Shown one piece after another: positions 9,198 through 36,239 of a stretch of DNA of 64,000 nt. Source of the DNA: Bacteroidota bacterium. Lineage in GTDB: Bacteria > Bacteroidota > Bacteroidia > Chitinophagales > Chitinophagaceae. The position numbers and the translations under genes are program-made. How positions within the stretch are numbered: the first letter of the stretch is position 1; each line of letters opens with the position of its first letter. The notes beneath the pieces are model-generated. The model was not told the DNA's origin. It saw only the letters and a program-made list of their open reading frames with translations, and did no database searches. The stretch is taken from positions 124,898 to 188,897 of the forward strand of contig VBAT01000013.1 in NCBI GenBank assembly GCA_005884665.1, written 5' to 3'.

Positions 9198-10909
9198 TGT
9201 GCATCTATCCAGTTGTTGAGGGCTGTTAACTGCTTTTTGAGCGTACCATCTTTGAGCTGATCAAAATGATCGAAAATAACCTTGCCAAGTGCCTTTCCCT
9301 TTTCCTGGCTTTTGAACCATTTCTGTCTGACAGCTGCCCCTGCCACGGCCGTTCGCAATGCGGGAGCATCAACCGCCTGATAGAAATCGTCGGGACAAGC
9401 GGGAAACATGTGTTTGATTGCCGCAACAAAACTTTGGTTAACCTTATCGGTCGTGGAACCATTTTCCTCTACTTTGTACGCGACTGCAATACCGTAAAGG
9501 GACCGAATGGCCTCAAATGGAAGCGCTTTGATAATAGCTGTTTCAAGATTATCGCCCTGGTCCCAGTCAAAGATTGGAACGTTATCTGTTCTGAGCGCCG
9601 CTTTCCTTTTGGCAAAATCCTTTTTTTTGTCCTTGTTCTCTGCATCGGAGTCGCAAAAGAGGCAAACCGGAAATTTAGCGGCCTTAAAATGTTTGACATA
9701 CTCAATCATCTCAGATCCGGACCCGTCCGCAACTCTGACTCCGAGATAAGCCATGTTCGCTTTTTCATTGGCCAGACGAAAGTCCTGCAATGCACGGCAT
9801 ATCCCTATTTCAGTAGCTCCCTCTGCGACGATAATCTTCTTCGCAAAGAATGCCTCCGGGTTTTTCCTGCACACACCTTGCATGCTTGACGGAAACCGAT
9901 AAGGTGATTTCTCTTCTTTCCGGATAAGATAGAGCTTTTCACTGGTAACTTCCACCAGCACATCCCTGGAATGTGTTGTGATAAACACCTGTCCCTTGTT
10001 ATGCTTTGTCAGGATATTAATAAGGTTCTGCACCCTGTCGGGCTCCAGCCCTTGTTCTATTTCGTCGATAAGAACCAGACCTCCCGTACCCGCGATCAAA
10101 GCCTGGATCGTCATGGAGATAAGTCTTTTTGACCCCTTTCCTTTGAGCCGGAAAGGGATCGACTCATCATGCAGGCTTAGTTTCCCGTCTTTAAAAAGGA
10201 AGTCTTTGAAATCAATCGTTGTTAGTGATTTTGAAATATCGATACCGAAACTTTGCGCGCTAGATTTTACCTTGCTGATGACACTATCAAATTTTGAGAA
10301 CGAGCTCACATCAATTTTACCTTTTGCAGCCCGTAATATATCGATCAGCACATCTTCCTCTTCGTTGATTCTGAGTTCCTGTCTAAGCAATGAATAAAGT
10401 GGACTACCCTTTCCCCAGGAAAAATGACGGTCCATGAAATCAGATACAAGGAACGCATTGAATTTGGAACGATCAGCTGCACCAATAAACCTGTTCCCTG
10501 CTTCCCGGTTCGTGACGACATGCCATTTAGGTTCCAGGTCTTTTTCAACCGATAGCTGGATGGTGATTGCTATTCCATCAGCCATCTCCGGTTCATCATA
10601 AACACGATGCTGCGATGCATCATAGGCTTTTAGATGCATTCCGAATTTTGTCTCTGCCAGGAGTTCGCCCGGTACATCGATCAATGTCACTTCAATGAGA
10701 ATGGGATTGCCGGTATCGCAGTTGTGAAAATCGTTATCAAAAAAGCTAACGTTCCAGTTCGCGGATAAGGCGAGTGCAAGTGCCTCCAAAACGGTGGATT
10801 TGCCGGAATCGCCCCGGCCGATCAGGCAGACCAGGTCGGTATTGAACTCCCCATGGAAATCTTTGATTCCACGGAAGTTCTTGATTGATATTGAGTGCAC
10901 TCTGCTCAT
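9194..10909 (-). CDS. gajA: Gabija GajA-like OLD-family ATPase/TOPRIM nuclease
   Basis: A 571-residue OLD-family protein. The N-terminal ABC-type ATPase shows Walker A GRGDSGKST (31-39), Walker B LVLIDEIEQG (278-287) and the H-loop TTHSR (311-315). The C-terminal TOPRIM domain shows EGATE (363-367) and FCDSD (418-422), the acidic residues that bind metal in this family. GajA is about this length and forms a large complex with GajB that cleaves phage DNA when nucleotide levels fall (established for the Bacillus cereus system). Start at 10909 (MSRVHSISIKNFRGIKDF) is typical. The 260 bases upstream, to 11170, contain no gene I can support. Confidence 0.9.
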   Translation of the reverse strand: MSRVHSISIKNFRGIKDFHGEFNTDLVCLIGRGDSGKSTVLEALALALSANWNVSFFDNDFHNCDTGNPILIEVTLIDVPGELLAETKFGMHLKAYDASQHRVYDEPEMADGIAITIQLSVEKDLEPKWHVVTNREAGNRFIGAADRSKFNAFLVSDFMDRHFSWGKGSPLYSLLRQELRINEEEDVLIDILRAAKGKIDVSSFSKFDSVISKVKSSAQSFGIDISKSLTTIDFKDFLFKDGKLSLHDESIPFRLKGKGSKRLISMTIQALIAGTGGLVLIDEIEQGLEPDRVQNLINILTKHNKGQVFITTHSRDVLVEVTSEKLYLIRKEEKSPYRFPSSMQGVCRKNPEAFFAKKIIVAEGATEIGICRALQDFRLANEKANMAYLGVRVADGSGSEMIEYVKHFKAAKFPVCLFCDSDAENKDKKKDFAKRKAALRTDNVPIFDWDQGDNLETAIIKALPFEAIRSLYGIAVAYKVEENGSTTDKVNQSFVAAIKHMFPACPDDFYQAVDAPALRTAVAGAAVRQKWFKSQEKGKALGKVIFDHFDQLKDGTLKKQLTALNNWIDAQ

Positions 10910-16157: not shown

Positions 16158-19100
16158 TTAGATATTTTTCAACTTCCTGTATGCCTGCGCCGCGAGCAAC
16201 GCTGTCACCAATTTTTGAAAAGGGATATCATTCATAAATCTGGCAAAGAGTTCTTCATTCTGATCAATTCGTTCCACAAACAGATTTTCAAGAACATTTT
16301 TAAATACCAGTTCAAATTTTTCCTCCGGATTTACTCCGGCGGCCTTCGCTAGATTTTCATCAAGTATAGCCGTTTCAACAATCTGGTCAAAGAAATACTG
16401 ATCGGCCTGGTTGAAATCTGTTCCGAATCTTTCATTGATAATGTCGACCAATCTGGAAAGCGGTACAGGATCTTCGTGAAGCACTCCTGTTCCTACTTCA
16501 GTTGGCCCATCCAATTTGTAACCCAAACCTTCACGAAGATTAATGGAGCCTTCACTGATCTTTTGCAAGCGATAGTATTCTAACCGGACAGTATCATCAA
16601 AATTGTAATCAGGCGTCGCTTTTCTTCTTGGAAGTTTCGATGAAAGGTGCCGGAAGAAAACAAACAGTTTTTCAAGGTCGCTATCCTGGTATGGAATAAC
16701 CTGACTCAGAAAAGCATACAGGTTTTTAAATGCATTAATCTTGCCTCTCCATAATTCCGCCTCCTCTTCATTTTCCTGCATAAGATTTGAAAACCGCGAT
16801 ACTGCCGGGTCTAATGCCGCATTCATGGCCTCATGATCGGCCGCACTTTGCTTCTGTTTAGGTTTAAAATAAATTTCACAAAAACGGTTAACATCTTCTT
16901 TCATATAGACGCCGGATAAATCAAGTCCTCCTTGTAAACGATACAAATGTGCAGGGTCAACCTCCTCGCCCATTTCTGCACCTTCATAATAAGTTTTAAA
17001 GGCAAGTCTGATCTCTTCCCGGTCGTTCACAAAATCGAGAATGAAAGTATCTTCCTTAAGTGGATGTGTACGGTTTAATCTTGAAAGAGTTTGCACAGCC
17101 TGAATACCTGCAAGTCGTTTATCAACATACATGGTATGGAGCAGTGGCTGATCAAATCCGGTTTGATATTTTTCTGCAACCAACAACACATGATACTCGG
17201 GAGTACCAAATTTCTCAGGCAATTCTTTTTCTTTAATGCCATTGTTCATCCCAACTTCCGTGTAGGCAACATTTTTAAACTCATCATCGTTCACAATCCC
17301 TGAAAAAGCTACCAGGGACTTAATCGGATAACCCTTACCCTTTATGTACTTGTCAAAACTCTGTTTGTATCTCACTGCTTCAAGTCTTGAACTTGTAACT
17401 ACCATTGCTTTGGCGTGACCGCCGATTTTATGTCTTGTTACTCCATTAAAATGCTCAACCATCACTTCTGTTTTCTGCGAAATATTGTGTGGGTGAAGCC
17501 TAAGAAATCTGTTCAAAGCCTTTGCTGCTTTTTTTCTTTCTACCTGCGGATCATCTTCTGACGCCTTCAGCAGTTTATAAAATGTAATATAAGTGCTATA
17601 GTTTTTTAGCACATCCAGGATAAAACCTTCTTCAATGGCCTGCCGCATCGTGTATTTATGAAACGGTTCGCCATTGCTGCCAAATACAGCCATTGTTTTA
17701 TGTTTCGGAGTAGCAGTGAAAGCAAAGAAACTAATATTGGATTGCTTTCCTCGCTTTGCCATATTCCGGTATAGCTCTTCCATATTGGCTAAACCATCTT
17801 CTGACGCTTTTCTCTTTGCCTCTTCAACCAATTTATCACCACCGAGCACCTCTTTCAAATCGGCAGCACTTTCTCCGCTTTGCGAACTGTGAGCTTCGTC
17901 AATAATCACTGCAAATTTTTTTGTCTGCAGCACTCCTGTTCCAGTATCTCCTCTTTCCTCGGCCAGCTTCATCAATTGCCTTGACACAAATGGAAATTTT
18001 TGAAGTGTGGTAATAACAATCGGCACAGAACTTTCCAAAGCGATTGCCAATTGCCGGCTGTCCTCATCAATTTTTTGAACAACTCCCCGCTTATGTTCAA
18101 ACTGGTAAATAGTATCCTGCAACTGTTTGTCTAAAACCACCCTATCCGTAATGACGATTACAGAATCAAAAACCTTTTCATTACTAATATCGTGAAGCGA
18201 TGCAAGGCGATGAGCCAGCCAGGCGATGGTATTGGTTTTACCACTACCTGCAGAATGTTCTATGAGATAATTATTGCCGGCTGCATCTTCGCCGGCTGCT
18301 TTTACCAGCGTACGCACAGCCTGCAACTGGTGATAACGAGGAAAAACCATCGTTTCTTTTCTAATCTTCCGGCCTTCATCGCTCAACTTTTCTTCTATCT
18401 GCAGATGAATAAAACGGGCAAGCAACTCGAAGAAATTGTCATTACGTAAAATCTCTTCCCATAGATATGCGGTCTTGTAGGTTCTTCCATTTGGATCCGG
18501 TGGATTGCCAGCACCTCCTTCAAAACCTTTATTTAACGGAAGAAAGTAACTGGCAGTGCCGGCCAATCTTGTAGTCATGTATACCTGTTCTGTATCTACT
18601 GCAAAGTGCACCAGGGTTCTTCGCTTGAATTCAAAAAGTATCTCTCTCGGATCTCTGTCATTCCTATATTGGCGTTTTGCGTTGTCAACATTTTGTCCCG
18701 TCATTGGATTCTTTAGCTCGACTGTAGCAATCGGAATACCATTGATGCTTAAAGTAACATCTAGTGAGTTATTGTTGCGTGTGGAATAACAAAGTTGCCT
18801 CGTAATGCCCAGAATGTTTTCAGAGTATTGCTTTTCTAATTCTGGGTTCATGGTATGTGATGCTTTGAAAAAAGCAATGAAGAAAGTGCGGCCATAGCAT
18901 TTGAATCCATGTCTCAATGTTGCCAGAGAACCATTGCTATCCATCCATTTGCATAGATCATTCAGTACCTGTTCCTGAGTATTAGCACCAAGTAATGCTT
19001 CCAACTTAATCCACTCTTTTTCTTGGGTTGTCTTGATGAATTCAATAACTGTTTGAGGAAAGATAGCTTTTTCCTTATCGTAACTTTCTCTGGCAATATG

Positions 19101-19175
19101 ATCATATCCGTTATTGCACAAATACTCCTCAATAACAGTCTCGAAAGCAGTTTCAAGTGTAGCGTAATTTTTCAT
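16158..19175 (-). CDS. hsdR: Type I restriction enzyme, R (endonuclease/translocase) subunit
   Basis: HsdR of 1005 residues, a full length for the family. The N-terminal nuclease shows SLDVTLSINGIPIATVELKN, the Asp and ExK of the PD-(D/E)XK site. The translocase has LIEHSAGSGKTNT (Walker A), VIIDEAHSSQSGE (DEAH), FFAFTATPKHKTM and QTLSRLNRTHP. It cuts unmodified DNA after ATP-driven translocation in complex with HsdM and HsdS. It starts at 19175, overlapping by four bases the stop of the HNH gene upstream, so it is the last gene of a five-gene minus-strand operon. No damage to the frame is seen. Confidence 0.95.
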   Translation of the reverse strand: MKNYATLETAFETVIEEYLCNNGYDHIARESYDKEKAIFPQTVIEFIKTTQEKEWIKLEALLGANTQEQVLNDLCKWMDSNGSLATLRHGFKCYGRTFFIAFFKASHTMNPELEKQYSENILGITRQLCYSTRNNNSLDVTLSINGIPIATVELKNPMTGQNVDNAKRQYRNDRDPREILFEFKRRTLVHFAVDTEQVYMTTRLAGTASYFLPLNKGFEGGAGNPPDPNGRTYKTAYLWEEILRNDNFFELLARFIHLQIEEKLSDEGRKIRKETMVFPRYHQLQAVRTLVKAAGEDAAGNNYLIEHSAGSGKTNTIAWLAHRLASLHDISNEKVFDSVIVITDRVVLDKQLQDTIYQFEHKRGVVQKIDEDSRQLAIALESSVPIVITTLQKFPFVSRQLMKLAEERGDTGTGVLQTKKFAVIIDEAHSSQSGESAADLKEVLGGDKLVEEAKRKASEDGLANMEELYRNMAKRGKQSNISFFAFTATPKHKTMAVFGSNGEPFHKYTMRQAIEEGFILDVLKNYSTYITFYKLLKASEDDPQVERKKAAKALNRFLRLHPHNISQKTEVMVEHFNGVTRHKIGGHAKAMVVTSSRLEAVRYKQSFDKYIKGKGYPIKSLVAFSGIVNDDEFKNVAYTEVGMNNGIKEKELPEKFGTPEYHVLLVAEKYQTGFDQPLLHTMYVDKRLAGIQAVQTLSRLNRTHPLKEDTFILDFVNDREEIRLAFKTYYEGAEMGEEVDPAHLYRLQGGLDLSGVYMKEDVNRFCEIYFKPKQKQSAADHEAMNAALDPAVSRFSNLMQENEEEAELWRGKINAFKNLYAFLSQVIPYQDSDLEKLFVFFRHLSSKLPRRKATPDYNFDDTVRLEYYRLQKISEGSINLREGLGYKLDGPTEVGTGVLHEDPVPLSRLVDIINERFGTDFNQADQYFFDQIVETAILDENLAKAAGVNPEEKFELVFKNVLENLFVERIDQNEELFARFMNDIPFQKLVTALLAAQAYRKLKNI

Positions 19176-19816
19176 GCCCGAAGACGGTTAAGTTTCTTTT
19201 GTAACCAAAATACAACTACCTGGCAATATGGTTGTAGATCATCATTATGAGAATCCCCATTCCAATCATTAATCATTTTTCTTATCGTTTCTATTTTCAG
19301 TTGACCCTTAAATTTACTTAATCCGGCTTGAAACGCAGTAAGCGCGGCTGCGCGATTATTTATTAATTTAGGAATATTTAGATTCAAACCGCTGTTCAAC
19401 TCCTCGCTTAAGCTGTGATTTTCAGAGCCTATGGTTCCATCACTGCTATACCAAATCATATTCTGGATACTTCTTCTTCTGTCAGCTGGATTAAAACTTA
19501 ATTCCCCATCACCTTTAAAGGTATCGCAGTGCTGAACTTTTTTAGGTTGCCTTTCATTTCCCATACAAGCCCCTAAAATATTATGGTACTTAAGTTGAAA
19601 ATCAGGATACTCAGCTTGGCTCTTGAAGTGCTCAATCTTCATATACCCTGTGATAGGGGCAATGTATCCCAAACAATAGCAACAAATTCCACGTTGCTCT
19701 GTATGTGTAGATACTCGCAAATCGTCTTTATCAGCATAGTTATCATAGTTTGAATGCCTCTGCTTTCTATGCTGAGTAAGGCTATTTGGTTCGTTTCCTT
19801 TTATAATTCTTCTCAT
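19172..19816 (-). CDS. ptuB: Septu-like HNH nuclease (PtuB family, TIGR02646-like)
   Basis: I chose the start at 19816 (MRRIIKGNEPNSL), since this MRxIxKxxEP beginning is typical of the family; an in-frame ATG at 19834 lies further into ptuA. The protein has about 214 residues. An HNH-type zinc nuclease core is visible: CCYCLGYI, then IEHFKSQAEYPDFQLKYHN, then CDTFKGD. PtuB is the nuclease partner of the PtuA ATPase in Septu and in retron Ec78. The gene overlaps ptuA by 35 bases and hsdR by four, so it is part of the type I operon. Function as an anti-phage nuclease is inference from family. Confidence 0.8.
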   Translation of the reverse strand: MRRIIKGNEPNSLTQHRKQRHSNYDNYADKDDLRVSTHTEQRGICCYCLGYIAPITGYMKIEHFKSQAEYPDFQLKYHNILGACMGNERQPKKVQHCDTFKGDGELSFNPADRRRSIQNMIWYSSDGTIGSENHSLSEELNSGLNLNIPKLINNRAAALTAFQAGLSKFKGQLKIETIRKMINDWNGDSHNDDLQPYCQVVVFWLQKKLNRLRA

Positions 19817-21071
19817 CTTTAATATTTCCTTCAAGAAAATGAATCAGGGTTGATGCTCTTATAATTTCAGCATCGTCTTTTCCTAAAATCTTAGAGATAT
19901 TTGCCAGCTGCTTTTTCGCAGTGCTCAATTCTTCTCTATCTATGCTCTTATACATTTTAGAGAGTAGTGATTTCACTTTCCTATTACGAGGTAAAGTGTC
20001 CAGGACTTCTTCTAGTATTCGGCTGGAATCAACACCATATGAACTTATGGGCTTAAAAGTACCGTTATCGATAACAGTAATTCTTTCAGGTTCTACTTCA
20101 CCAATTATCTGGGGTGAATGCGTAGTAGCTATAAATTGACAATTAGGAAATGTTTTTATTAGATTTTCCACGATGACTCTTTGCCACCTAGGATGACAAT
20201 GCAAATCCAATTCATCAATCAAGACAATAGCGACACCTTGCCTTAAAGGATCATCCAACTCTGGATTGGCCTGAGAAAGTCTTCTTGCAAGATCTAAAAC
20301 CATTGCTATAACTCCTCTTTCGCCATCTGATAATTGAAAAAGACTTAATGGAATCCCATTTTTTTCAATCATAAAATGAACACTCCGGTCCAATTCCCTA
20401 ATATGGAGGTTGCTGAATGCCGGCAGAAATAATTCAATTGCCTCCCGCAAAACGGAAATGTGTTTTAACATTTTTGATTTTTCCTCTGCGAGTTTCTCCT
20501 GTACCTTGTACCATTGCGCAATTAGCCGGAGATTGACTTCCCGATTAAAGGATAATGATTCAGCGAAGGCCACAGTTTGTCCTCCGGCAATTGTCGAACT
20601 ACTAGGCTTCTGGTCTACTAATAGTGACCGGCGAGTTGAAAAATAAATTCCGAGTGGTTGTGTTTTAGATTCTTTTGACTTCGGAAAAAATTCCTTAAGT
20701 GAAGGATTAATTTGCTCTATATCTGGTGTTTCGATGACTTGGTCTCTTGGCTTTCCTGTCTTCTTTGGAATAGACGATATTTTTTGTTTATGAAACAAAT
20801 ATTTGAATTCTTTTCCTTGTAAATCCAAATCGCATTCTACCTGCAACGAATCCATTCCGATGCTGATATCATTTATTTCAAAAGCCTGCTTAGGGCTACG
20901 AGAAGAAGTAATTTCGGGTAGAATTCTCGATAAACAAATCCTTATAGCGTCTAACACCGTTGTTTTGCCGACGCCGTTTATACCAACCAATAAGTTCATT
21001 CCTGGCAGAAATGTAAACTCAGCATGGGAAAAGGCTCTTAGTCCTGAAACGGTTAATTTTTTTATTCTCAT
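19782..21071 (-). CDS. ptuA: Septu-like ABC-type ATPase (PtuA family)
   Basis: A 429-residue OLD/RecF-like ATPase without a TOPRIM domain. Walker A is GINGVGKTT (about residue 30), the signature motif is LSDGERGV, Walker B is VLIDELDLHCHP, and the H-loop is TTHSPQ. The size and the following HNH partner match PtuA of Septu. The start at 21071 shares one base with the hsdS stop, and its end overlaps ptuB, so translation of all five genes appears coupled. R-linked ATPases have been described inside type I loci (rlo genes in Campylobacter), which is a useful parallel. Control by the restriction enzyme is a hypothesis. Confidence 0.82.
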   Translation of the reverse strand: MRIKKLTVSGLRAFSHAEFTFLPGMNLLVGINGVGKTTVLDAIRICLSRILPEITSSRSPKQAFEINDISIGMDSLQVECDLDLQGKEFKYLFHKQKISSIPKKTGKPRDQVIETPDIEQINPSLKEFFPKSKESKTQPLGIYFSTRRSLLVDQKPSSSTIAGGQTVAFAESLSFNREVNLRLIAQWYKVQEKLAEEKSKMLKHISVLREAIELFLPAFSNLHIRELDRSVHFMIEKNGIPLSLFQLSDGERGVIAMVLDLARRLSQANPELDDPLRQGVAIVLIDELDLHCHPRWQRVIVENLIKTFPNCQFIATTHSPQIIGEVEPERITVIDNGTFKPISSYGVDSSRILEEVLDTLPRNRKVKSLLSKMYKSIDREELSTAKKQLANISKILGKDDAEIIRASTLIHFLEGNIKDEKNYKRKRTK

Positions 21072-22267
21072 TAGTCAGTTGGTATTTCTATTTGTCCGGT
21101 TACCGCAGCAGTAATTAGCGCCGACCTTCTTTCTTTCAATAAATTAATGCTATGATCGGTATGCTTTTGAAGTTCGCTTAATTTAATATTTGAAATTTCA
21201 ACAGATGCAACTATTTCTTTTTGCTCTTCATAAGAAGGCAGAGGCATAATAAATGATTTCAGATTTTCAAAGTTCAACCCTTCTCTTCCACCCCCAACCT
21301 GGCTAATTGCAATTTGGCTTTGGCCGAAATCGGAAGCCAATAAAAGATATAAGTATTTTGTTATTACTTTCTTATTTGGCCTAAGTATGCAAACATGCTG
21401 ATTAACATTAGCTTCTTCAAATTGTCCCTCAAAATAATAACACCTTCCGATAGAAGCTCCCGTAATATTAAGTAGAACATCCCCATTTTCAACTTTACTA
21501 TTTGACATTGAATTATGAATCTCATTAGAAATATATGCCACATCATCCAGTTTTAAGCCATCGAAATGAATGTTCTGGCTGCGCAATAATGGTATTCCCA
21601 CTTGTTGATAGACTTCTGCTCCTCCTTTTGGTGTTACGCCACTTCCAATTTTACTCGTCACATACTTTATTTTTTCTATTTTCCAATGCTCCGGTACTTC
21701 TCCTAACCATTCAATACCCGAACTCGTCATTTTGACTTCTGGATTCAGACCTTTTGTTACAGCTTGTGTAATCAGGGATTGACGTTTTTCAGACAGAATT
21801 GTTAAAAGATTTTCTTTGGATTTAATTAAACTATCAATACTAGATAATTCGCTATCAAGATAAGATGCGATTCGAGCCTCATATTCATGATTGAAAACTA
21901 AAATCCTTTGATTATAAGCTGTCTCCCTATTTAATCCCGGAACGGCAGCTTCACTCGAACCCTCATCAAGTTTTAGGGTCTGCAATGCATAATACAGCCA
22001 ACGTAGCGTATGTTTTGTAGTCTGTTGATCAATAAAAAAGGTCGTGTCGGAAGCAAAGCAAGGCTCAGGACTCCAATTTATTTTTCCATATGATCCTTTG
22101 CGACCTACAATAATTGCAGGAGCTCCAGTATTTGAATAATTTATTAAAGCATACGGGCCATTTGAACCAAAAACTTTAATGTCGCCATCAAGTATTTCTT
22201 CTGTGGGTAATGAGTCTCCATAACTAAAGCGGGCAACATACTTAATCCTGGTAAGATTTCCTTTCAT
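21071..22267 (-). CDS. hsdS: Type I restriction-modification specificity subunit S
   Basis: HsdS of 398 residues. Two target-recognition domains are visible, the second beginning IEWLGEVPEHWKIEKIKYV, each followed by a conserved helical spacer (the first ends LLTILSEKRQSLITQAVTKG, the second LLKERRSALITAAVTGQI). It directs methylation and cleavage to a two-part DNA site. The N-terminal TRD starts abruptly at MKGNLTRIKYVARF, slightly shorter than usual but with no sign of damage. It overlaps hsdM by four bases. The recognition sequence cannot be deduced by eye. Confidence 0.92.
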   Translation of the reverse strand: MKGNLTRIKYVARFSYGDSLPTEEILDGDIKVFGSNGPYALINYSNTGAPAIIVGRKGSYGKINWSPEPCFASDTTFFIDQQTTKHTLRWLYYALQTLKLDEGSSEAAVPGLNRETAYNQRILVFNHEYEARIASYLDSELSSIDSLIKSKENLLTILSEKRQSLITQAVTKGLNPEVKMTSSGIEWLGEVPEHWKIEKIKYVTSKIGSGVTPKGGAEVYQQVGIPLLRSQNIHFDGLKLDDVAYISNEIHNSMSNSKVENGDVLLNITGASIGRCYYFEGQFEEANVNQHVCILRPNKKVITKYLYLLLASDFGQSQIAISQVGGGREGLNFENLKSFIMPLPSYEEQKEIVASVEISNIKLSELQKHTDHSINLLKERRSALITAAVTGQIEIPTD

Positions 22268-24255
22268 ATCGTGACTTCCTTTAGCAACCTAAAAATTTCG
22301 TTTTCTATCTGCTTAAGCTCATTGTCAATCTCTTTTAAATCCCTGAGAGGAATATGATTAAAGAAATAACGATTAAAATTAATTTCATAGCCGACTTTAT
22401 CCTTGGTTCTGTCCATCCAAGCGTCGGGAACATGAGGTAAAACTTCCATTTTAAAGTATTCATCAATATCCCGTTCCAGCGGTATGTTTTCAAAATCCCT
22501 TAATTCCGTATCTGCTTCAAATTCATCTTTATTCTTTCTTACTTCTTTTGCATCCGGATCTCTTTTCGTAAATACATCCCGGAAAAGTTTATGTTCACCA
22601 GCTTTCCATTTACTTTCATTGTCGTTTAGTATCTTTCTTATTTGTTTCTCTACTTTATTCCAATCCGTATAAGACTCTCGCCCCATTTCCTTATCTATTG
22701 ACTGCACATCATCCAGCAAATGTGGGCAAGCTTCCAGGAAACGGGCTTTATCTTCCAATTTCATCTGATAACGCAGCCGCAGTGGTCGCTCGACTGTAAC
22801 ACGGGTAAAACCAAAATCGCTATTATTAAATGTTTTGGTTTGTTTTGTCTCCTGAAAGCGGCCGTACATTCTTACTATATCGCCAATCTGGTCGGGCTCC
22901 ATAGGTTCCACATCTTTTCCTTCGCCAATCTTTCTCCGTTTATCCCCCAGGCTGCGTCGCATGGATACATGATATTCACGGGCATCTACTAATTGTATTT
23001 TGCCTCTACGACGCATTTCCTTGCGGTTGGTAACAATCCACACATAGGTTGTAATACCCGTGTTATAAAACATTTGCTCAGGCAACGCAACGATTGCTTC
23101 CAGCCAGTCATTTTCAATAATCCAGCGACGGATGTTGCTTTCACCTGAACCTGCGCCGCCACTGAACATCGGCGAGCCACTAAAAACAATCGCCAATCTT
23201 GAACCATACTTTTGGTTTTTTTCATCCACCCGTTCAAACTTGCTCATCATGTGTTGCAGAAAAAGAAGCGCCCCGTCATTTACCCTCGGAAGACCGGCTC
23301 CAAAACGACCAGAATATCCCAGCTTTTCATGCTCTCTTGTTATTTCATTTTGTTGCTTTTTCCAGTCAACACCAAAGGGAGGATTTGATATCAGGTAATC
23401 AAAAGTTTTACCTTCAAACTTATCTTCTGTCAGGCTGTCTCCATACTGAATATTCTCACCTGCGCCATTATGGGCAACTTCTTTTATCAACATATCTGAC
23501 GCTGCAGTGGCAAATGCCCTTTTGTTATAATCTTGTCCATAGGCAAATAACTGAGCTTCGGAATGGTGTTTTTGAAGATATGATTGAGCCTCGGCCAACA
23601 TTCCGCCGGTTCCGCAGGCAGGGTCCAACATTTTACGGATAGTTCCGGCTTTGGAAAGTAAATCATCATCATTAATGAATAATAGGTTTACCATGAGCTT
23701 AATAACTTCCCGAGGAGTAAAGTGATCACCGGCTGTTTCGTTGGCCAATTCATTAAACCTGCGGATGAGATTTTCAAAGATCAGACCCATTTCAATATTT
23801 CTAACATTCTTAGGGTGCAAATCAACTGTGCTGAAACGTGAAACGACGAGGTAAAGAATATTAGCCTCGTTCATTCTTTCTATTTCCTTTTCAAACTCAA
23901 AATAGTTGAAGATCCTACGGACGTTTTCTGAAAATCCATTGATATAACTTGCCAAGTCCTTTGAAATGGAATCGGGAGCGCCTTTTAGCTTTTCAAAAGT
24001 AAATTTTGAATGGTTGTGAAATTTTTGCATCGATACTTTATTCAGCCGGGCATCGAGTGCTTTTCCATCCAGCTTCCCTTTGTATTTTTCATACTCATTC
24101 AGCACTTTTTGTTTTGTAGGTTCCAATACACAATCAAAACGGCGAAGAACTGTCATGGGTAGCATTACCCTTTCATATTGCGGAGGACGGTAGGGGCCGC
24201 GAAGTAAATCAGCTATTTGCCAGATGAGATTACTGTGATCCTGATGGTTGGCCAT
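22264..24255 (-). CDS. hsdM: Type I restriction-modification methyltransferase subunit M
   Basis: HsdM, an N6-adenine methyltransferase. I place the start at 24255 (MANHQDHSNLIWQIADLLRG), the usual N-terminus; the frame stays open to 24327 but the extra residues are not family-like. The protein then has 663 residues. The SAM-binding motif DPACGTGGML and catalytic motif NPPFG are clear, and an N-terminal helical HsdM domain precedes them. It is the first gene of the operon hsdM-hsdS-ptuA-ptuB-hsdR. The 144-base gap to the divergent 24400 gene should hold the promoters of both units. Confidence 0.95.
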   Translation of the reverse strand: MANHQDHSNLIWQIADLLRGPYRPPQYERVMLPMTVLRRFDCVLEPTKQKVLNEYEKYKGKLDGKALDARLNKVSMQKFHNHSKFTFEKLKGAPDSISKDLASYINGFSENVRRIFNYFEFEKEIERMNEANILYLVVSRFSTVDLHPKNVRNIEMGLIFENLIRRFNELANETAGDHFTPREVIKLMVNLLFINDDDLLSKAGTIRKMLDPACGTGGMLAEAQSYLQKHHSEAQLFAYGQDYNKRAFATAASDMLIKEVAHNGAGENIQYGDSLTEDKFEGKTFDYLISNPPFGVDWKKQQNEITREHEKLGYSGRFGAGLPRVNDGALLFLQHMMSKFERVDEKNQKYGSRLAIVFSGSPMFSGGAGSGESNIRRWIIENDWLEAIVALPEQMFYNTGITTYVWIVTNRKEMRRRGKIQLVDAREYHVSMRRSLGDKRRKIGEGKDVEPMEPDQIGDIVRMYGRFQETKQTKTFNNSDFGFTRVTVERPLRLRYQMKLEDKARFLEACPHLLDDVQSIDKEMGRESYTDWNKVEKQIRKILNDNESKWKAGEHKLFRDVFTKRDPDAKEVRKNKDEFEADTELRDFENIPLERDIDEYFKMEVLPHVPDAWMDRTKDKVGYEINFNRYFFNHIPLRDLKEIDNELKQIENEIFRLLKEVTI

Positions 24256-24399
24256 GGTTAGTCTATTATAAGGCTCTCTGATTAAGCAATTTAAGCCGAA
24301 AATAGGAAATATAAGCATACATTTCATCCCGCCATTATCGTGAATTCCTTTTACTTGTAAACTGAAGTTTTGATTACATTAGTAAATCAAATGAGATAA
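24256..24399. promoter_or_regulatory. Divergent intergenic region with presumed promoters
   Basis: The only noncoding gap between the leftward type I/Septu operon and the rightward three-gene operon. It is A/T-rich, as expected for Bacteroidota promoters, but I cannot place a clear -33/-7 pair with confidence. Shared placement would let both defence units be coregulated. Confidence 0.35.
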
Positions 24400-24822
24400 A
24401 TGAAAGAAATAATTCTTCTGAAAGGTTATCCAAATACTGGAAAAAGTCTGACACTTAAAAATGAACTGCCTCCCCTCATGGGAGAAGACGCTGGGAAACG
24501 CACTTTCCGGTATAAGGGTAAATTGATTTGGATAATCAGGCGGTCATTGCATGAAAGCTATGATTGGAAAGAGGTATTAAAGAAAATAAATAAGTCCAAT
24601 CACGATATAATTGTACTGCCGGCATGGGCAGATGATTGGATTAACTATTCAAAATATATAAATCGAACTGTAGAATCGCTGATACGCACATACATTCCCT
24701 CCCGTACTATTGCCGGAACAGTATTTACAATATCAGAAACGAATGAGCCCCGGCAAAGAAGAGATCAGCGAAGGTGTGCAAGAGAAATTCTTGATTTAAT
24801 TGAAACACTTGTAACCATATGA
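24400..24822 (+). CDS. Small P-loop NTPase-like protein
   Basis: A 140-residue protein with an N-terminal Walker A motif, LKGYPNTGKSLTLKNE. A possible Walker B-type strand follows in HDIIVLPAWADDW. The C-terminus is basic (EPRQRRDQRRCAREIL). It is too small for a helicase or ABC ATPase and may be a kinase-like or regulatory NTPase. It overlaps the next gene by four bases (ATGA) and so belongs to a three-gene operon with a HARE-HTH nuclease and a DNA glycosylase. No family name can be given. Confidence 0.65.
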   Translation: MKEIILLKGYPNTGKSLTLKNELPPLMGEDAGKRTFRYKGKLIWIIRRSLHESYDWKEVLKKINKSNHDIIVLPAWADDWINYSKYINRTVESLIRTYIPSRTIAGTVFTISETNEPRQRRDQRRCAREILDLIETLVTI

Positions 24823-25562
24823 ATAAATTCCGGACGGCTGCAATTCAAATGCTCTTAGAGGCAAAGCAACCTCTGCATTACAAGGAAATAACCCGGCTAG
24901 CTCTTGATAGAGGTATTTTAGAAACAGATGGGGCAACTCCTGATGCAAGCATGTATGCACAAATTATCACCGATATAAAACAAAAAGGCGAATCATCCGA
25001 CTTTATTAAAATCGACAAAGCCACCTTTGCTTTAAACACTAGCAAAAAACCTATTGAAGCTAAAAAGCAAAAGGAAGTATTGGAAGAGGAAGAAGTTGAA
25101 GAGGAAAAAATTAAAATCGACAGTGGATTTATCGCAAAAGGCGGTGAGTACCTGGTTTGTTCTGAATTGCTTTTCCGTGAATATAACGCAAGTATCATGG
25201 GGGTTGATAAAGGAATTGATATCATCGCAACAAAAAACAACAAGCTCTATTCAATACAGGTAAAAACTGCCAATGCAAATGACTACAAGACATATAACTT
25301 TGATGTTCGTAAGGTGTCATTTGAACGAGAATATGCGGGAAATACATTTTACATATTTGTACTTAAAGACAAGAGCATAAACAAATTCTTGATCTTGCCT
25401 TTTAGTGAAATGGAAAAGAAGGTAAAACAAAAGGCAATACATGATGTAAAGAGTTACGAGAAGTATCGTGTTAAAATTGATATAAGAGACGATAAAATCT
25501 ATTTAGGCAATAGGGAACACGAAATGAGCTATTATTTGAATAATTGGGATATTATCAAATAA
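24819..25562 (+). CDS. HARE-HTH domain fused to a restriction-endonuclease-like domain
   Basis: A 247-residue two-domain protein. Residues 1-75 match a HARE-HTH winged helix (AIQMLLEAKQPLHYKEITRLA, then a DASMYAQIITDI helix), a domain found in ASXL proteins and in bacterial restriction-type proteins, where it is predicted to sense modified DNA. An acidic linker (residues 85-98) leads to a PD-(D/E)XK-like nuclease: Glu110 in KGGEYLVCSELL, Asp134 in DKGIDIIAT and QVK at 147-149. All catalytic positions look intact. It overlaps the P-loop gene by four bases and precedes the glycosylase gene by 13 bases. Substrate preference is inferred. Confidence 0.75.
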   Translation: MNKFRTAAIQMLLEAKQPLHYKEITRLALDRGILETDGATPDASMYAQIITDIKQKGESSDFIKIDKATFALNTSKKPIEAKKQKEVLEEEEVEEEKIKIDSGFIAKGGEYLVCSELLFREYNASIMGVDKGIDIIATKNNKLYSIQVKTANANDYKTYNFDVRKVSFEREYAGNTFYIFVLKDKSINKFLILPFSEMEKKVKQKAIHDVKSYEKYRVKIDIRDDKIYLGNREHEMSYYLNNWDIIK

Positions 25563-25575
25563 ATAATGTGAATCA

Positions 25576-26067
25576 ATGCTGAAGGATGTCCTTACATATG
25601 ATCTTGATGTAGTATTCTGTGGTACCGCTAAAGGGAAAAAATCAGCTGATTCAGGCTTCTATTATGCACATGCGGGAAATAAATTCTATAAAATACTATT
25701 TGATGCAGGATTCACACCGCACAGGTTAGTTCCAGAAACTTGCTATCAGATCAACCAACACAAAATTGGCCTTACCGACCTCGTTCATAAGCAATCCGGA
25801 AACGATAGACAGATAAACAAATCAAGCTATGAGGTTGATCTTTTTTCCAAAAAAATGATAGAATTCCAACCGAAGTTCATTGCGTTTACAAGTAAAACAG
25901 CTGCGTCTTTTGCCCTTGGATTTAATGGGAAGACCCGACATATCAATTATGGTCTAGCTGATAAGGTCATCGGCAAATCAAAAATATTCATACTTCCATC
26001 CACTTCTGGAGCTGCCGCAAGATTTTGGGCTCCGGAATATTGGCGTGACTTAAGAAAAATGATTTAA
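25576..26067 (+). CDS. MUG-like (G/U mismatch) DNA glycosylase
   Basis: A 163-residue protein of the uracil-DNA glycosylase superfamily, closest by eye to the Mug/TDG branch. The first motif is FCGTAKGKKSADSGFYYAH, in the place of the GxNPG loop, followed by NKFYKILFDAGF and IGLTDLVHK. The second motif is LPSTSGAAARFW, in the place of the NPSG-type loop. The first loop differs from canonical Mug, so the base excised may differ. It is the third gene of the operon after the P-loop and HARE-HTH nuclease genes. A damage-repair role is the default; in this setting excision of modified phage bases is a reasonable alternative. Confidence 0.75.
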   Translation: MLKDVLTYDLDVVFCGTAKGKKSADSGFYYAHAGNKFYKILFDAGFTPHRLVPETCYQINQHKIGLTDLVHKQSGNDRQINKSSYEVDLFSKKMIEFQPKFIAFTSKTAASFALGFNGKTRHINYGLADKVIGKSKIFILPSTSGAAARFWAPEYWRDLRKMI

Positions 26068-26185: not shown

Positions 26186-28912
26186 ATGCATTTGCTTCTT
26201 GACACGAACATTCTGATAAACCTTATCAGCGACCCCCGCCAGGAATACGTTATTAAGGTACTTCAGCAGCTAATTGATTCTGGACAAATCAAATTGCTTG
26301 TGCCGGACGTTTTGTTAAAGGAATGGACTAAGAAAAAGCTCCAGACCTTAGACTATATCACAAGACGATTTTCTTCATCAAAGGCCCATTCTCATAACCG
26401 GTCGCTGAACTTTGAAGACGATATTTCAATCATAAAAGAAAAGATACAGAAAGTTGATACCTTACTATCCACTGGTATTTCCATACCGCTCATCCGTTTA
26501 GTAAAAGTCATGGCAGTAGACCGTGGCCTTAATAATCAGGCGCCTTTTCATGGTGATAAGAAAAAAAGTACTAATGATGCCTTATTTTACTTCTCCGCAA
26601 TTTATTACATAGAAAAAAAGAATTTCAAAGAGTTCGCATTCGCCACAAATGACACTGATTTTGTAAATCCGACGAATAGAAACGAGCTACACCCCGACCT
26701 GTTACCACCTTCCGCCAAGATTTACTTTTCTCCGGCAGTGGAAAAGTTGCTCCTTGATCTTCAAGATTCCGGTAGAATCAATTTTGAAAGAAAATTTGTG
26801 GAAACCGGCAATAAATATATCATCTATGTCGCTTCTCACGAAAAAAAAACAGTGTTGGATTATCTATATGAAGTTCTCACACTGTGTTATGAAAAGATGA
26901 GATTTATTCCTCCGGATATTTTTTGCAAAATACATCCATTCCGCACGCAGAATGTAAGGTACAACTATAGTTATTATTCTAACTATGTACTCTACACCAA
27001 CAATGAAGAGCTCATAAATTTTCTGGCAAAAATTGATATTGATCGAAATAAGTTTAAGAAAGGATCAGGTTACAGAAACACGAAACTTAATATTTCAAAA
27101 ATTTCAAAAATTCTGGACCTGCTTAATCGCCAACTTGTTTTTACAATTAGCAACATCGACGGTAATCACGAGGTCAAGATACGTCCTAAAATAATAATTG
27201 ATTGCAATTGTGTACGTTGCCTTTACACTAAGCTCAAATTTATCGATAGCCTAAATAGTGAAGATACTTCGGACATTCTGAAAACTGCATTTGTGCAATT
27301 TCAGTTTGGATTCTATACAAAGTCACTCCAAAGCTACTATGAGTGCTATCTAAGAGCAAAAGAAAATGGTAATAAAGTATTGGCATATCAACTGCAATTT
27401 ATCCTTAAATGGGTAAACAATCATGTAAACTTAAATACTGAGGATACCAAAACCGACGCATCACAACAAATTGACCGACTTGATAACGAAACGGAGTATT
27501 TCTCGTTTGCCAATTCACCGGCCTTGGACCGTGAAATCGCCAGCTTTTTTCATAGCGGAAATATCATCCGCGCGTTTGCGGGCGACATCAAAGAATCCCG
27601 GGACAAAATACGGGAACATTACACGTCGCAACTTCGAGCCAGTTACAGTAACAATAGTAATTGTTGGAATTTAATTTGTGGCTTTTCTATTTTCGAGGAG
27701 TTTACATTAGCCAATGGTATGGCTTATACGCAATATTCAGATTTTTCAAACATTTGCGATGACTATGTTGAGGGAATAATGTTAGGTCTTGCGTTAAATG
27801 AGTATCAGCCATCGCGATTACTATTTTTCAACGATTATATCTTGCGAACCCTATTGAATTATGGGAACCCGGATAAAATGATTGTATTGTATAAACGCTA
27901 TGTGAAAAAAGAAATCCCCTACGTACAAGAAGACGGATCTTTTATGCAACGTGTCACTAATCTATTGAATAACGACAAGGATTTTATTAACTACCTGGAA
28001 CAAACCAATGCCTGGCATGGCAGCCAGCATTTCTATAATCGTTACTGGAATCTACTTCTCCTGCTTTCCATAGTTGACATCGATACTTCTTTCATAATGA
28101 ATTGCTTTGATAAAATAGTTCAATTCTTGGATGTGATACCCAAAAGGGAAACAACTCGGCTCAATCATCTTGCCACTTTCATACATTCTAAGGGGAAGCA
28201 TATAGATCAGAAACAGATCAAGCAATTGTTTAACCAATGTCTTGAAAATCCATTACTACACAGCCAGGAAGTATTTGAAGCCTTTGCGGGCCTTTCTCGT
28301 AAATCCGGCCCTTCTTTTATTGATGACCGAAACGAGTTTGACAAATTTTGTCAATTGTTTTTGAACAAGACTGAAAGAACGGTCTGGTATAGTAACGATA
28401 TTTTACTAACCATCCATTCCTCGTTGACAGAAGAATTCAAAACAGAACTTACAGTCCTAATACACAAAAAACTCCAAGATAAATTCGATCACGAAGTCTA
28501 TTATTTGGCATCTTTATATGAGGTAATCGACTATCGGGCAAATTTCGACCAGTATCTCGCATTGTTTAAACATCCAGTGCAAGGCAGAAGACATCCATTT
28601 GGGCACCTAGATGGTGAACTTAGTTATCGGGAATTAAACAATCTTATGAACCTGGTTTTTAAGAATAAAATCAGCCTTCCTATCTCATTTATTGAGAACC
28701 TAAAAGGTATATCTGACTATTATGACTGGTTACTGGACATGGACAACTTCGACTATAGGAGGTTTAAGCCATTATGGATAATACAATATGCGACGCTACA
28801 TTATTTAGAGAAGATTTTCGCGTATGATAGTGTCAGACAGAAAGTTCGGCACTATTTGAAAAAAAATCATCAGCCGACTCTGGCCGCTTATTACTCTCAA
28901 TATGTTAAATAA
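26186..28912 (+). CDS. Large PIN-domain protein, 908 residues
   Basis: Residues 1-195 form a PIN nuclease domain with its acidic residues intact: Asp6 (LLDTNILI), Glu in LLKEWTKKK, Asp in KKSTNDALFYF, and Asp in FATNDTDFV. The remaining 700 residues are helix-rich, with no signal peptide or membrane segment, and look like an alpha-repeat or sensor region; two Cys in DCNCVRCLY could bind metal. PIN domains usually cut RNA. Genes with a short PIN nuclease joined to a long unassigned region occur among candidate phage-defence effectors. It lies 118 bases after the glycosylase gene on the same strand and could be cotranscribed. Confidence 0.7.
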   Translation: MHLLLDTNILINLISDPRQEYVIKVLQQLIDSGQIKLLVPDVLLKEWTKKKLQTLDYITRRFSSSKAHSHNRSLNFEDDISIIKEKIQKVDTLLSTGISIPLIRLVKVMAVDRGLNNQAPFHGDKKKSTNDALFYFSAIYYIEKKNFKEFAFATNDTDFVNPTNRNELHPDLLPPSAKIYFSPAVEKLLLDLQDSGRINFERKFVETGNKYIIYVASHEKKTVLDYLYEVLTLCYEKMRFIPPDIFCKIHPFRTQNVRYNYSYYSNYVLYTNNEELINFLAKIDIDRNKFKKGSGYRNTKLNISKISKILDLLNRQLVFTISNIDGNHEVKIRPKIIIDCNCVRCLYTKLKFIDSLNSEDTSDILKTAFVQFQFGFYTKSLQSYYECYLRAKENGNKVLAYQLQFILKWVNNHVNLNTEDTKTDASQQIDRLDNETEYFSFANSPALDREIASFFHSGNIIRAFAGDIKESRDKIREHYTSQLRASYSNNSNCWNLICGFSIFEEFTLANGMAYTQYSDFSNICDDYVEGIMLGLALNEYQPSRLLFFNDYILRTLLNYGNPDKMIVLYKRYVKKEIPYVQEDGSFMQRVTNLLNNDKDFINYLEQTNAWHGSQHFYNRYWNLLLLLSIVDIDTSFIMNCFDKIVQFLDVIPKRETTRLNHLATFIHSKGKHIDQKQIKQLFNQCLENPLLHSQEVFEAFAGLSRKSGPSFIDDRNEFDKFCQLFLNKTERTVWYSNDILLTIHSSLTEEFKTELTVLIHKKLQDKFDHEVYYLASLYEVIDYRANFDQYLALFKHPVQGRRHPFGHLDGELSYRELNNLMNLVFKNKISLPISFIENLKGISDYYDWLLDMDNFDYRRFKPLWIIQYATLHYLEKIFAYDSVRQKVRHYLKKNHQPTLAAYYSQYVK

Positions 28913-34123: not shown

Positions 34124-35121
34124 CTCTTTTCTGGCAAGATATAGCCAGCCAAATTTTCCAATATCCGTTTTCCTTTCGACGGCTCGTTCTGAGTTTTTTT
34201 AAGAACGTTTAACACCGTCTCTGGATTTAGGTTAGTTAAAATTCCTTTTTTACTCCTTACACAAAAAACGCCTGTTATCCATTGCGACAGAATATCATTT
34301 GTTTTCACTTCTATTTTTTCATTATATCGAAGTCTTTTAAAAAATTCTGCCAAGGCGTTGACATTGCCATTAAAACATAAACCATTAACATTCTCTCCTT
34401 TCACAATTGCCTTGAATAATATGTCGTGTTGTTGCTCGGAAAAATAACGTTGTAAGTTTTCATATAAAATAGTTGAAAACTGTGCATTCATTGTAATTAT
34501 TCTAACCTCTGGTGCTGTCTTTTTTTCCTCACCAGAATACGCCTTATCAATCATGAATTGCCTATTCCGTTCTACCCAATTCATTATTTTTTCCAGCCGA
34601 ACATGTTCATTTGCGCTTACCATTCGCTCTACGTGGTCATAAACCACATATTCAATCAGCTCATTAAAGTGATCTTTGTCAGCAACGTCATTTCCCAAAT
34701 AACGCACGCATTGATACGATAATAGGGCTTCTATTTTATAGACATCAATCAAAAGCAATTTCCACGCTAAGTACTCAGCATATATGTTTTCAGATGAAGG
34801 AAGAATGTACTTGCGATTTTTTCTATTTTCTGTCAAATCAATTCCCTTTTTTGCCATATCGTTGACAAAAGACTCTTCCTTCTCTTTGATCGAACGAAGC
34901 ATCATAAAATATATGCTTGCTACTTCCATTTCCTCTTCTTCATTGTGCTGACGAAGTGTAGTATATTTTGCCTCCTCTTCTTCATTTTGCCGATGAAGTA
35001 TCTTATGTCCTGCCTCATCTATGATGTGAAAAACATCGATATCATAAACATGTCTACTTGGCGGGAGTTTCCAGATTTTTCTTTTTAATTTTCCACGATC
35101 AAATTCCTCATCTGTACTCAT
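34057..35121 (-). CDS. Island-associated hypothetical protein (RteC-like C-terminal region)
   Basis: A 354-residue protein coupled by a four-base overlap to the integrase gene upstream. The N-terminus is charged and helical, with acidic clusters NEEEEA and NEEEEM. The C-terminal part ([17 protein letters not shown], then [12 protein letters not shown] and [13 protein letters not shown]) resembles the C-terminal domain of RteC-type and similar proteins of Bacteroidota conjugative elements, which regulate excision. That likeness is by pattern only. The last residues belong to a tandemly duplicated stretch. Confidence 0.5.
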
Positions 35122-36239
35122 AGGTTAATGTTAATTAGGTTAGCAGCATTAATTTTCTTTTCATTTAAAGTTTTAGCGTAAATCATAGTCGTTTTGATAT
35201 GTTTATGTCCCAGCATTGTTTGCACAGTACTAATATCAGCGCCGTTATTCAACAAAACGGTAGCATATGTATGGCGAAAATTGTGCAACGTGATTCTTTT
35301 GTTTATCCCTGCTTTTAAAATCCATCTTTTTAACTTGCCGTTATTGCCATCAGAGTATTTTAGACCACGGAATACTTCTTCTTGGGGGCTGCCTGATTCG
35401 CCAAGTACCTGTACTGCCGTATTGCTTATCGGATGAAGAATTACCTGTTTTGTTTTTTGTTGAATAATATGCAAAAAATAACCTTGGTCATTAGTATGTT
35501 GGATGTCATTCCACCGCAACCCTTTCATATCCGACCAGCGTAATCCGGTTAACGCGGAAAATAATGAAGCAGTTTTCAATAATTCAAGTTCGCAGGCTGT
35601 ATCTGATAATTTTTGTAACTCCTCTGTTGTTAAGAATTCTCTTTTTGTCTCTTTTTGATGAATTCCTTTTACATGCTTTAGCGGATCCTCTTTGATATAC
35701 TTTGAATCGAAAGCGGTCGAAACTCCTGTACAGAATTTATTAAAATAACTTAACGCTGAATTCTGAGACAGTTTTAATCCTTTGCTTTTTTTCAGCATAT
35801 CTGCGGTTAACAGATAATTCTTAAACCTGTTACAAAAATCTTCTGTTATATCACCCATCTTACATATGCCACCTGTAAATGCAGTCAGATAATTTAACGC
35901 ACTAATCCAATTATTGAAGTTTCCCTTGCTTTGGATACGATATTGGGCGAGTTGTTTGAAATATTCGAGAAAATCTCTTTTCTCATTCACCGGATTAAAC
36001 GTACCCTCTATCTCGTACAAAATCTCTTTTTCCCTTTTCAAAAGGACCTCTTTAGCAAAATGAAGGATTTCTTTATTACTTCTCTTTTCATCATCATCCT
36101 TTGGCTTCGCATAGAGGTACTTTTTAAGAAATTCCCGGCGCGTAAATGATCCATCCCCTTTATTGATCGGCGGATAGTAATCGAGATACAAACTTATTTT
36201 CCCATTGTTTAGTGTTTTTTTTCTTAAATGAACTCCCAT
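35118..36239 (-). CDS. int: Tyrosine site-specific recombinase (island integrase)
   Basis: A 373-residue phage-type integrase. A SAM-like core-binding domain (residues about 100-190) precedes the catalytic domain with the Arg in [24 protein letters not shown] (His-x-x-Arg), LGHKHIKTT (second His) and the Tyr nucleophile in [12 protein letters not shown]. All catalytic residues are present. The gene is 587 bases from the mnmE stop, next to the right attachment site, and is transcribed away from it, as expected for an island that targets the mnmE 3' end. It overlaps the next gene by four bases. Confidence 0.93.

Follow-up and report, generated by a model that had tools for sequence, protein, structure and literature searches.

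The operon described here, carried by the forward strand of the window (the whole 64,000-nucleotide stretch of DNA that was analysed), may be understood as an anti-phage module directed by DNA modification, in which a predicted HARE-HTH PD-(D/E)XK nuclease would cut phage DNA and a predicted glycosylase of the Deinococcus Mug type would remove phage bases, a reading to which we give an even chance of being right. Its basis in the sequence consists of the domains of the encoded proteins, their conserved catalytic residues, the tight coupling of the genes and the repeated occurrence of relatives of both in defence loci. In the mechanism that we envisage, the HARE-HTH domain of ORF2 would sense a modification of the DNA, and the glycosylase ORF3 would strip modified or unusual, probably pyrimidine, bases from the phage DNA, with Asp77 activating water for hydrolysis of the glycosidic bond. 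The resulting abasic sites could block phage replication or become breaks, and the nuclease of ORF2, acting in cooperation, would cut the same phage DNA.

The three forward-strand ORFs are coupled exactly as the original prediction had it, ORF1 (24400-24822, 140 aa) overlapping ORF2 (24819-25562, 247 aa) by the 4 nt of ATGA and ORF2 being followed by ORF3 (25576-26067, 163 aa) after a gap of 13 nt, and they probably form one operon within a cluster of predicted anti-phage genes. At a distance of 72 bp and divergent from the operon, the reverse strand carries the hsdM of a type I RM locus (22264-24327, given as the longest ORF, whose true start may be further inside), together with hsdS (21071-22267) and hsdR (16158-19175), and PtuB-like and PtuA-like (Septu) genes are nested between the latter two on the same strand (19172-21071). 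GajB-like and GajA-like (Gabija) genes occupy the same region, also in reverse orientation (7773-10909), and a UvrD-like helicase is encoded in the window's defence region as well. An inverted repeat in the divergent intergenic region, TTTGATT-9 nt-AATCAAA (24369-24391), is a possible operator. The defence setting originally claimed for the operon is borne out both by these Gabija, Septu and type I RM genes and by the relatives of the two enzymes, which lie in restriction or other defence loci. An integrase-like ORF (35118-36239) near mnmE, both named by reading of the ORFs, suggests a mobile element; a search for attachment repeats of the island gave no convincing pair, and in 6 other genomes of the genus no relatives of ORF2 or ORF3 were found. 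A gene for a 908-aa PIN_12-domain protein (26186-28912) lies on the same strand 118 nt downstream of the glycosylase and may share the operon transcript.

ORF2 joins a HARE-HTH domain (residues 4-73; Pfam PF05066, E 2e-15, above cut-off) to a C-terminal PD-(D/E)XK nuclease domain with intact residues, in agreement with what had been proposed for it. The nuclease half scores under the Pfam cut-off (PDDEXK_5, E 0.0012, 19.3 bits vs 26.1), and its profile found no match in a PDB sequence search. Glu110, Asp134, Gln147 and Lys149 are nonetheless invariant in 24/24 aligned sequences, these being ORF2 of the window and 23 chosen from the best 120 of 789 matches, and the best PDB matches of the predicted model in Foldseek, at modest TM-scores, are I-Ssp6803I (E 8.8e-5) and archaeal Hjc, both of which we take to be PD-(D/E)XK enzymes. 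With the HARE-HTH domain and the catalytic residues both in place, ORF2 is predicted to be a modification-dependent (type IV) restriction enzyme of the HARE-HTH/PD-(D/E)XK kind. The nuclease was detected in 14/298 genomes of the order (E 1e-3) and in 3/395 of the phylum (E 1e-15), in both cases at full length in its own genome only, and in 6/394 genomes of the family, its own included and one as a broken ORF. Neither the phage nor the plasmid collection gave a match, and 7 viral loci did, one of them over the full length. A full-length HARE nuclease relative (51%) lies on a viral contig that also encodes primase and terminase (L022:3835-4563).

ORF3 is assigned to Pfam UDG (E 1.8e-14), the UDG-fold match spanning its full length, and has the Mug/TDG fold. 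It is devoid of the motifs of E. coli-type Mug (UDG family 2), having GTAKG (25621-25635, forward strand) at the position of GxNPG with its catalytic Asn, and PSTSG instead of NPSGL. The original prediction had singled out this loop as a changed active site. The change itself stands, but it is, judged from the alignment, a family trait of the Deinococcus Mug type and not unique to ORF3, GTAKG being invariant in 19/19 aligned sequences (ORF3 of the window and 18 chosen from the best 120 of 373 matches). Invariant in the same 19/19 sequences is Asp77 (codon at 25804-25806, forward strand), which the alignment puts on Asp93 of the Deinococcus radiodurans enzyme, DrMug; the title of PDB entry 2c2q describes an inactive Asp93-to-Ala mutant of DrMug. 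From that title and from the title of a paper in a reference list, we take Asp93 to be the catalytic residue of DrMug. In a set of 14 sequences, Asp occupies this position in all eight that have a GTA[K/A/V]G loop and is absent from all five with GINPG or GLNPA, as well as from the single GLAAG sequence. Because Asp77 is conserved and aligned with Asp93 of DrMug, ORF3 is likely to be an active, Asp-dependent enzyme, with Asp77 as its likely catalytic residue. Since the asparagine of E. coli Mug is lost in GTAKG, and since PSTSG replaces NPSGL, one might alternatively suppose an inactive or binding-only ORF3 that reads damaged or modified bases without excising them and recruits the nuclease; given an aspartate that is invariant throughout the alignment and coincides with the residue whose Ala mutant is titled inactive, we regard such a reader as very unlikely.

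The glycosylase was found in 6/298 genomes of the order at E 1e-3, two of which (its own and G193) carry the ORF3 subfamily, and further in 3/395 genomes of the phylum, in 2/92 (the same two non-own genomes) and in 1/101 of the family (its own); the genome draws used for the two enzymes overlap and are not independent. In viral contigs none was found, and phage records gave 6 matches of at most 35% identity.

ORF1, the first gene of the operon, is a weaker case. The original prediction saw a small P-loop NTPase in it, and a Walker A motif is indeed present (GYPNTGKS, 24424-24447), fitting a pattern that recurs in 50/20000 shuffles of equal composition. Since no canonical Walker B is seen and no above-cut-off match was obtained against Pfam, NCBIfam, PADLOC or PHROGs, 'NTPase' is a likely reading only. 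The codon usage of ORF1 is coding-like but weak (z 2.4, compared with 6.0 for ORF2 and 4.4 for ORF3). A shadow ORF scores z 2.9, yet its absolute score is lower (-0.013 vs 0.112 bits per codon). Among 5.8 billion proteins ORF1 retrieved itself only, in a search that scored just 12 candidates with common short words and could miss a remote homologue, and against the ORFs of the relatives' loci its matches were its own copies only. ORF1 probably plays a local accessory role and does not belong to the core.

The placement of the ORF3 subfamily elsewhere could suggest that the glycosylase works with more than one kind of partner. In all four subfamily loci that were reachable, a set from which four weak order-genome matches of another UDG branch are excluded, the glycosylase adjoins a nuclease-like or restriction gene at a spacing of at most 13 nt. 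Each of the four is a defence locus. In these four loci the glycosylase is not mostly found beside DNA repair genes, an arrangement that the original prediction had named as grounds for refutation. The partners differ, being the HARE nuclease in the window, a NucS-like protein in G432, a CoiA-like protein in G579 and McrB-McrC in G193. In G432 the glycosylase shares a 4-nt overlap with the gene of a NucS_C-domain protein, and a complete Shango set (SngA, SngB, SngC) is nearby. In G579 it lies beside a CoiA_N-domain protein, followed by hsdM, with a 14-nt overlap or a 7-nt gap depending on a TTG or ATG start; this neighbour matches the N-terminal CoiA domain only, and CoiA does not count among the restriction families. 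The order in G193 is hsdM, hsdS-like ORFs (by reading), a gene for a 515-aa protein, the glycosylase, a McrB-like AAA_5 ATPase, McrC and the HsdR gene, so that the glycosylase stands 1 nt before the ATPase, inside a type I RM locus. With four different predicted nuclease or restriction neighbours, the glycosylase looks like an exchangeable effector. The proposal may be extended to a modular strategy in which an Asp-dependent glycosylase of the Mug/TDG branch, recruited to anti-phage defence, strips modified phage bases and is combined, from operon to operon, with interchangeable nucleases that cut the same DNA, here the HARE-HTH nuclease; we offer this extension tentatively and consider it somewhat improbable. 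Two further observations concern these loci. The 515-aa protein directly before the G193 glycosylase (L036:8299-9846) is without a family match, and a PfkB/deoxyribosyltransferase protein, a QueC-like protein and unknown proteins lie beside the glycosylase locus of G579 (L034:9215-11918).

The relatives of the nuclease are likewise located among restriction genes, in this case of changing type. In G737 the HARE nuclease follows a type I RM set at a distance of 207 nt, and in G822 a type III Res gene at 34 nt; in G713 it belongs to a cluster that has hsdM at 5 kb, in G971 type IIG and HKD-Snf2 genes are nearby, and in G909 its ORF is broken at a contig end (L045:5073-5831). The G713 cluster also encodes, two genes away from the HARE nuclease, a 690-aa Piwi-domain protein (L042:10035-12107). 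A CoiA-like reading of another G713 neighbour, of 226 aa, was given up, as it rested on a cysteine motif only, Pfam yielding nothing and the similarity to the G579 protein being weak (E 0.13). RM genes, scored with HsdM, HsdR, McrC and type III Res queries from which each region's own proteins were left out, occur in 5/9 focal regions and in 0/60 control regions (Fisher p 1e-5), the focal sample being small, three of its regions shorter (5.9, 8 and 16 kb) than the 17-kb controls, and the controls drawn over 6 of the 9 focal contigs. Taken separately, and with the window included in both, 3/4 glycosylase loci (Fisher p 1e-4) and 3/6 nuclease loci (Fisher p 4e-4) score. Of the four focal regions without an RM hit, one is a contig end, and the remaining three contain defence genes of other kinds (Shango, type IIG, type III). 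A query with the SngC helicase, not counted as RM, matched 2/60 controls at E about 1e-9.

The main rival explanation starts from the same loci. Defence islands stack genes, and the HARE nuclease could be a type IV enzyme that works alone and the glycosylase a defence gene in its own right, the two having been inserted side by side in a defence hotspot with only a promoter in common. In favour of such stacking, the nuclease lies near differing RM genes in G713, G737, G822 and G971, and the two genes are apart in other genomes that carry one of them: the glycosylase was found in 0/5 nuclease-positive relatives of the same family (one of these nucleases being the broken ORF at a contig end), and the nuclease in 0/3 other glycosylase-positive genomes, with profile models that did find targets in other searches. 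One candidate for a second joint occurrence came from the protein searches, where P0026 (nuclease, 73%) and P0143 (glycosylase, 65%), each labelled as coming from a Chitinophagaceae MAG whose longest contig has 7511 bases, may be neighbours on one metagenome contig, although one matching length among the best 120 of each list could be chance. As ORF2 and ORF3 are together only here, and possibly on that metagenome contig, they need not cooperate. The absence of conserved co-occurrence of the three genes, which the original prediction had set in advance as grounds for refutation, is largely what we found, and a conserved three-gene system is rejected, ORF1 being without relatives as far as the search reached and ORF2 and ORF3 being apart in other genomes. 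Of the defence operon of three, it is the defence setting and the nuclease-like or restriction partner beside the glycosylase that hold. Against stacking, the abutment or overlap seen in 4/4 glycosylase loci, at 13 nt or less, is tighter than loose stacking needs. We assign the stacking explanation an appreciable probability, short of an even one.

A further point of relevance to cooperation between the operon's enzymes is the existence of HARE-HTH domains fused to a UDG-superfamily domain in one polypeptide, in G088 and G144 (L113:8263-9036 and L114:8236-9000; 84% identity over 254 residues). Both halves exceed their Pfam cut-offs, HARE-HTH with 29.6 and 31.7 bits vs 25.9 and the UDG domain with 39.2 and 38.0 bits vs 24.3. 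The fusions resemble the window operon in joining HARE-HTH with UDG-superfamily base excision; they differ from it in being one polypeptide, in having no nuclease and in their GTMPG-type loop, which belongs to a different UDG branch. The fusions are two of the four weak order-genome matches to the glycosylase, all of which are of this other branch, with GTMPG, GNMPG or GSLPG loops, and plasmid relatives of the fusion's UDG half are annotated as DNA-deoxyinosine glycosylase. HARE-HTH is combined with predicted base excision independently of the window operon, too. In the RM test, 0/4 regions around the other-branch glycosylases (17-18.5 kb) score, the two around the fusions (0/2) included; at L114 a possible type II methylase and nuclease were noted by reading about 4 kb away, type II being a class at which the test is not aimed. 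Because the fusions are outside RM loci by this test, the link between HARE and glycosylase may concern unusual bases generally and not defence alone. The fusion supports that link, not a defence role. It also speaks against mere stacking, and because the glycosylase recurrently abuts changing partners and the HARE-UDG fusion exists, some cooperation of the kind assumed for the anti-phage module is favoured. Another HARE arrangement was seen in a Desulfuromonadales MAG (L021:2222-4029), where a HARE-HARE-Mrr protein is followed by a 227-aa protein with FLGIDANY, whose relatives occur on Acinetobacter and Variovorax plasmids; a UDG reading of the 227-aa protein, made by eye from FLGIDANY, obtained no support from Pfam, hhalign or the PDB and was dropped.

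The fusions could also be taken as a sign of repair. The glycosylase might guard the island or its RM system by mending deaminated bases (U or T opposite G), in analogy to Vsr beside Dcm. The closest solved relatives of ORF3 are repair enzymes (DrMug, E. coli Mug and human TDG), and the surroundings of four distant Mug relatives on plasmids consist of metabolic, replication and other ordinary genes (neighbours being judged in the annotated records, 2 of the 6 plasmid records around mug-like genes being without annotation). The fusions, too, located as they are outside RM loci by the RM test, may serve repair. Contrary to what a guard of this type would suggest, a regular-expression scan of ORFs of at least 100 aa in 10 stretches (the window and 9 loci) gave no C5-methyltransferase motif pair and N6/N4-type motifs only; the neighbouring methylase is HsdM, an N-6 methylase; and the sparse distribution of the subfamily in the phylum and family genomes, own genome included, is unlike that of housekeeping repair. 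We consider the repair guard unlikely, and return to the anti-phage module for comparison with known systems.

The enzyme most directly comparable to ORF3 is DrMug (PDB 2c2p, 2c2q), which has a GTAPS loop in place of GTAKG and LPSTSP in place of LPSTSG; ORF3 lies within a defence operon. The defence glycosylases encountered in the literature consulted are Brig1, Brig3 and the PabI group. For Brig1 and Brig3, defence by glycosylase base excision is described (PMC11078745, PMC13160076). ORF3 is, like Brig1, a UDG superfamily protein and, like both, is located in a defence island, and it shares with Brig3, which is accompanied by BapA, the presence of an operon partner (PMC13160076); compared by description, its fold belongs to another branch than family 4, which is the match reported for Brig1. 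The PabI restriction glycosylases, characterised in PMC10273834 by a HALFPIPE fold and protection by methylation, use base excision as restriction, as is proposed for ORF3. ORF3 differs from them in its UDG fold and in having no methylase in its own operon, and the matches listed for ORF3 include no PabI entry. A UDG domain is also named in the figure legend of a predicted, unvalidated system, which could be related (PMC13092281).

On the nuclease side, the two-domain plan of ORF2 is that of HARE-HTH + REase fusions of Dnd and BREX loci, for which discrimination of modified DNA is proposed in PMC10853773 and PMC12839542. The first of these sources already predicts a HARE-HTH fusion with a restriction nuclease to be a modified-DNA restriction enzyme (PMC10853773), and a further study regards the sensing of cytosine modification as the more likely role of HARE-HTH domains (PMC11037411). 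What sets ORF2 apart from the Dnd and BREX fusions is that a type I RM locus lies next to it and that its operon includes a glycosylase, a word absent from the main texts of PMC10853773 and PMC12839542. The operon offers a concrete case for the prediction that HARE-HTH reads modified DNA. Among the open-licence literature matches listed, as far as titles and the starts of abstracts go, neither a defence glycosylase of the Mug/TDG branch nor its pairing with restriction nucleases was recognised. Each half of the operon has a known counterpart, and what would be new, within the literature searched, is the proposed Mug/TDG-branch defence glycosylase together with its pairing with a restriction nuclease. 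Base excision and cutting are suggested as a combined route past phage base modification, and a Mug/TDG-branch glycosylase recurrently found beside nuclease or restriction genes would, next to Brig1, Brig3 and PabI, bring one more branch of repair enzymes into immunity.
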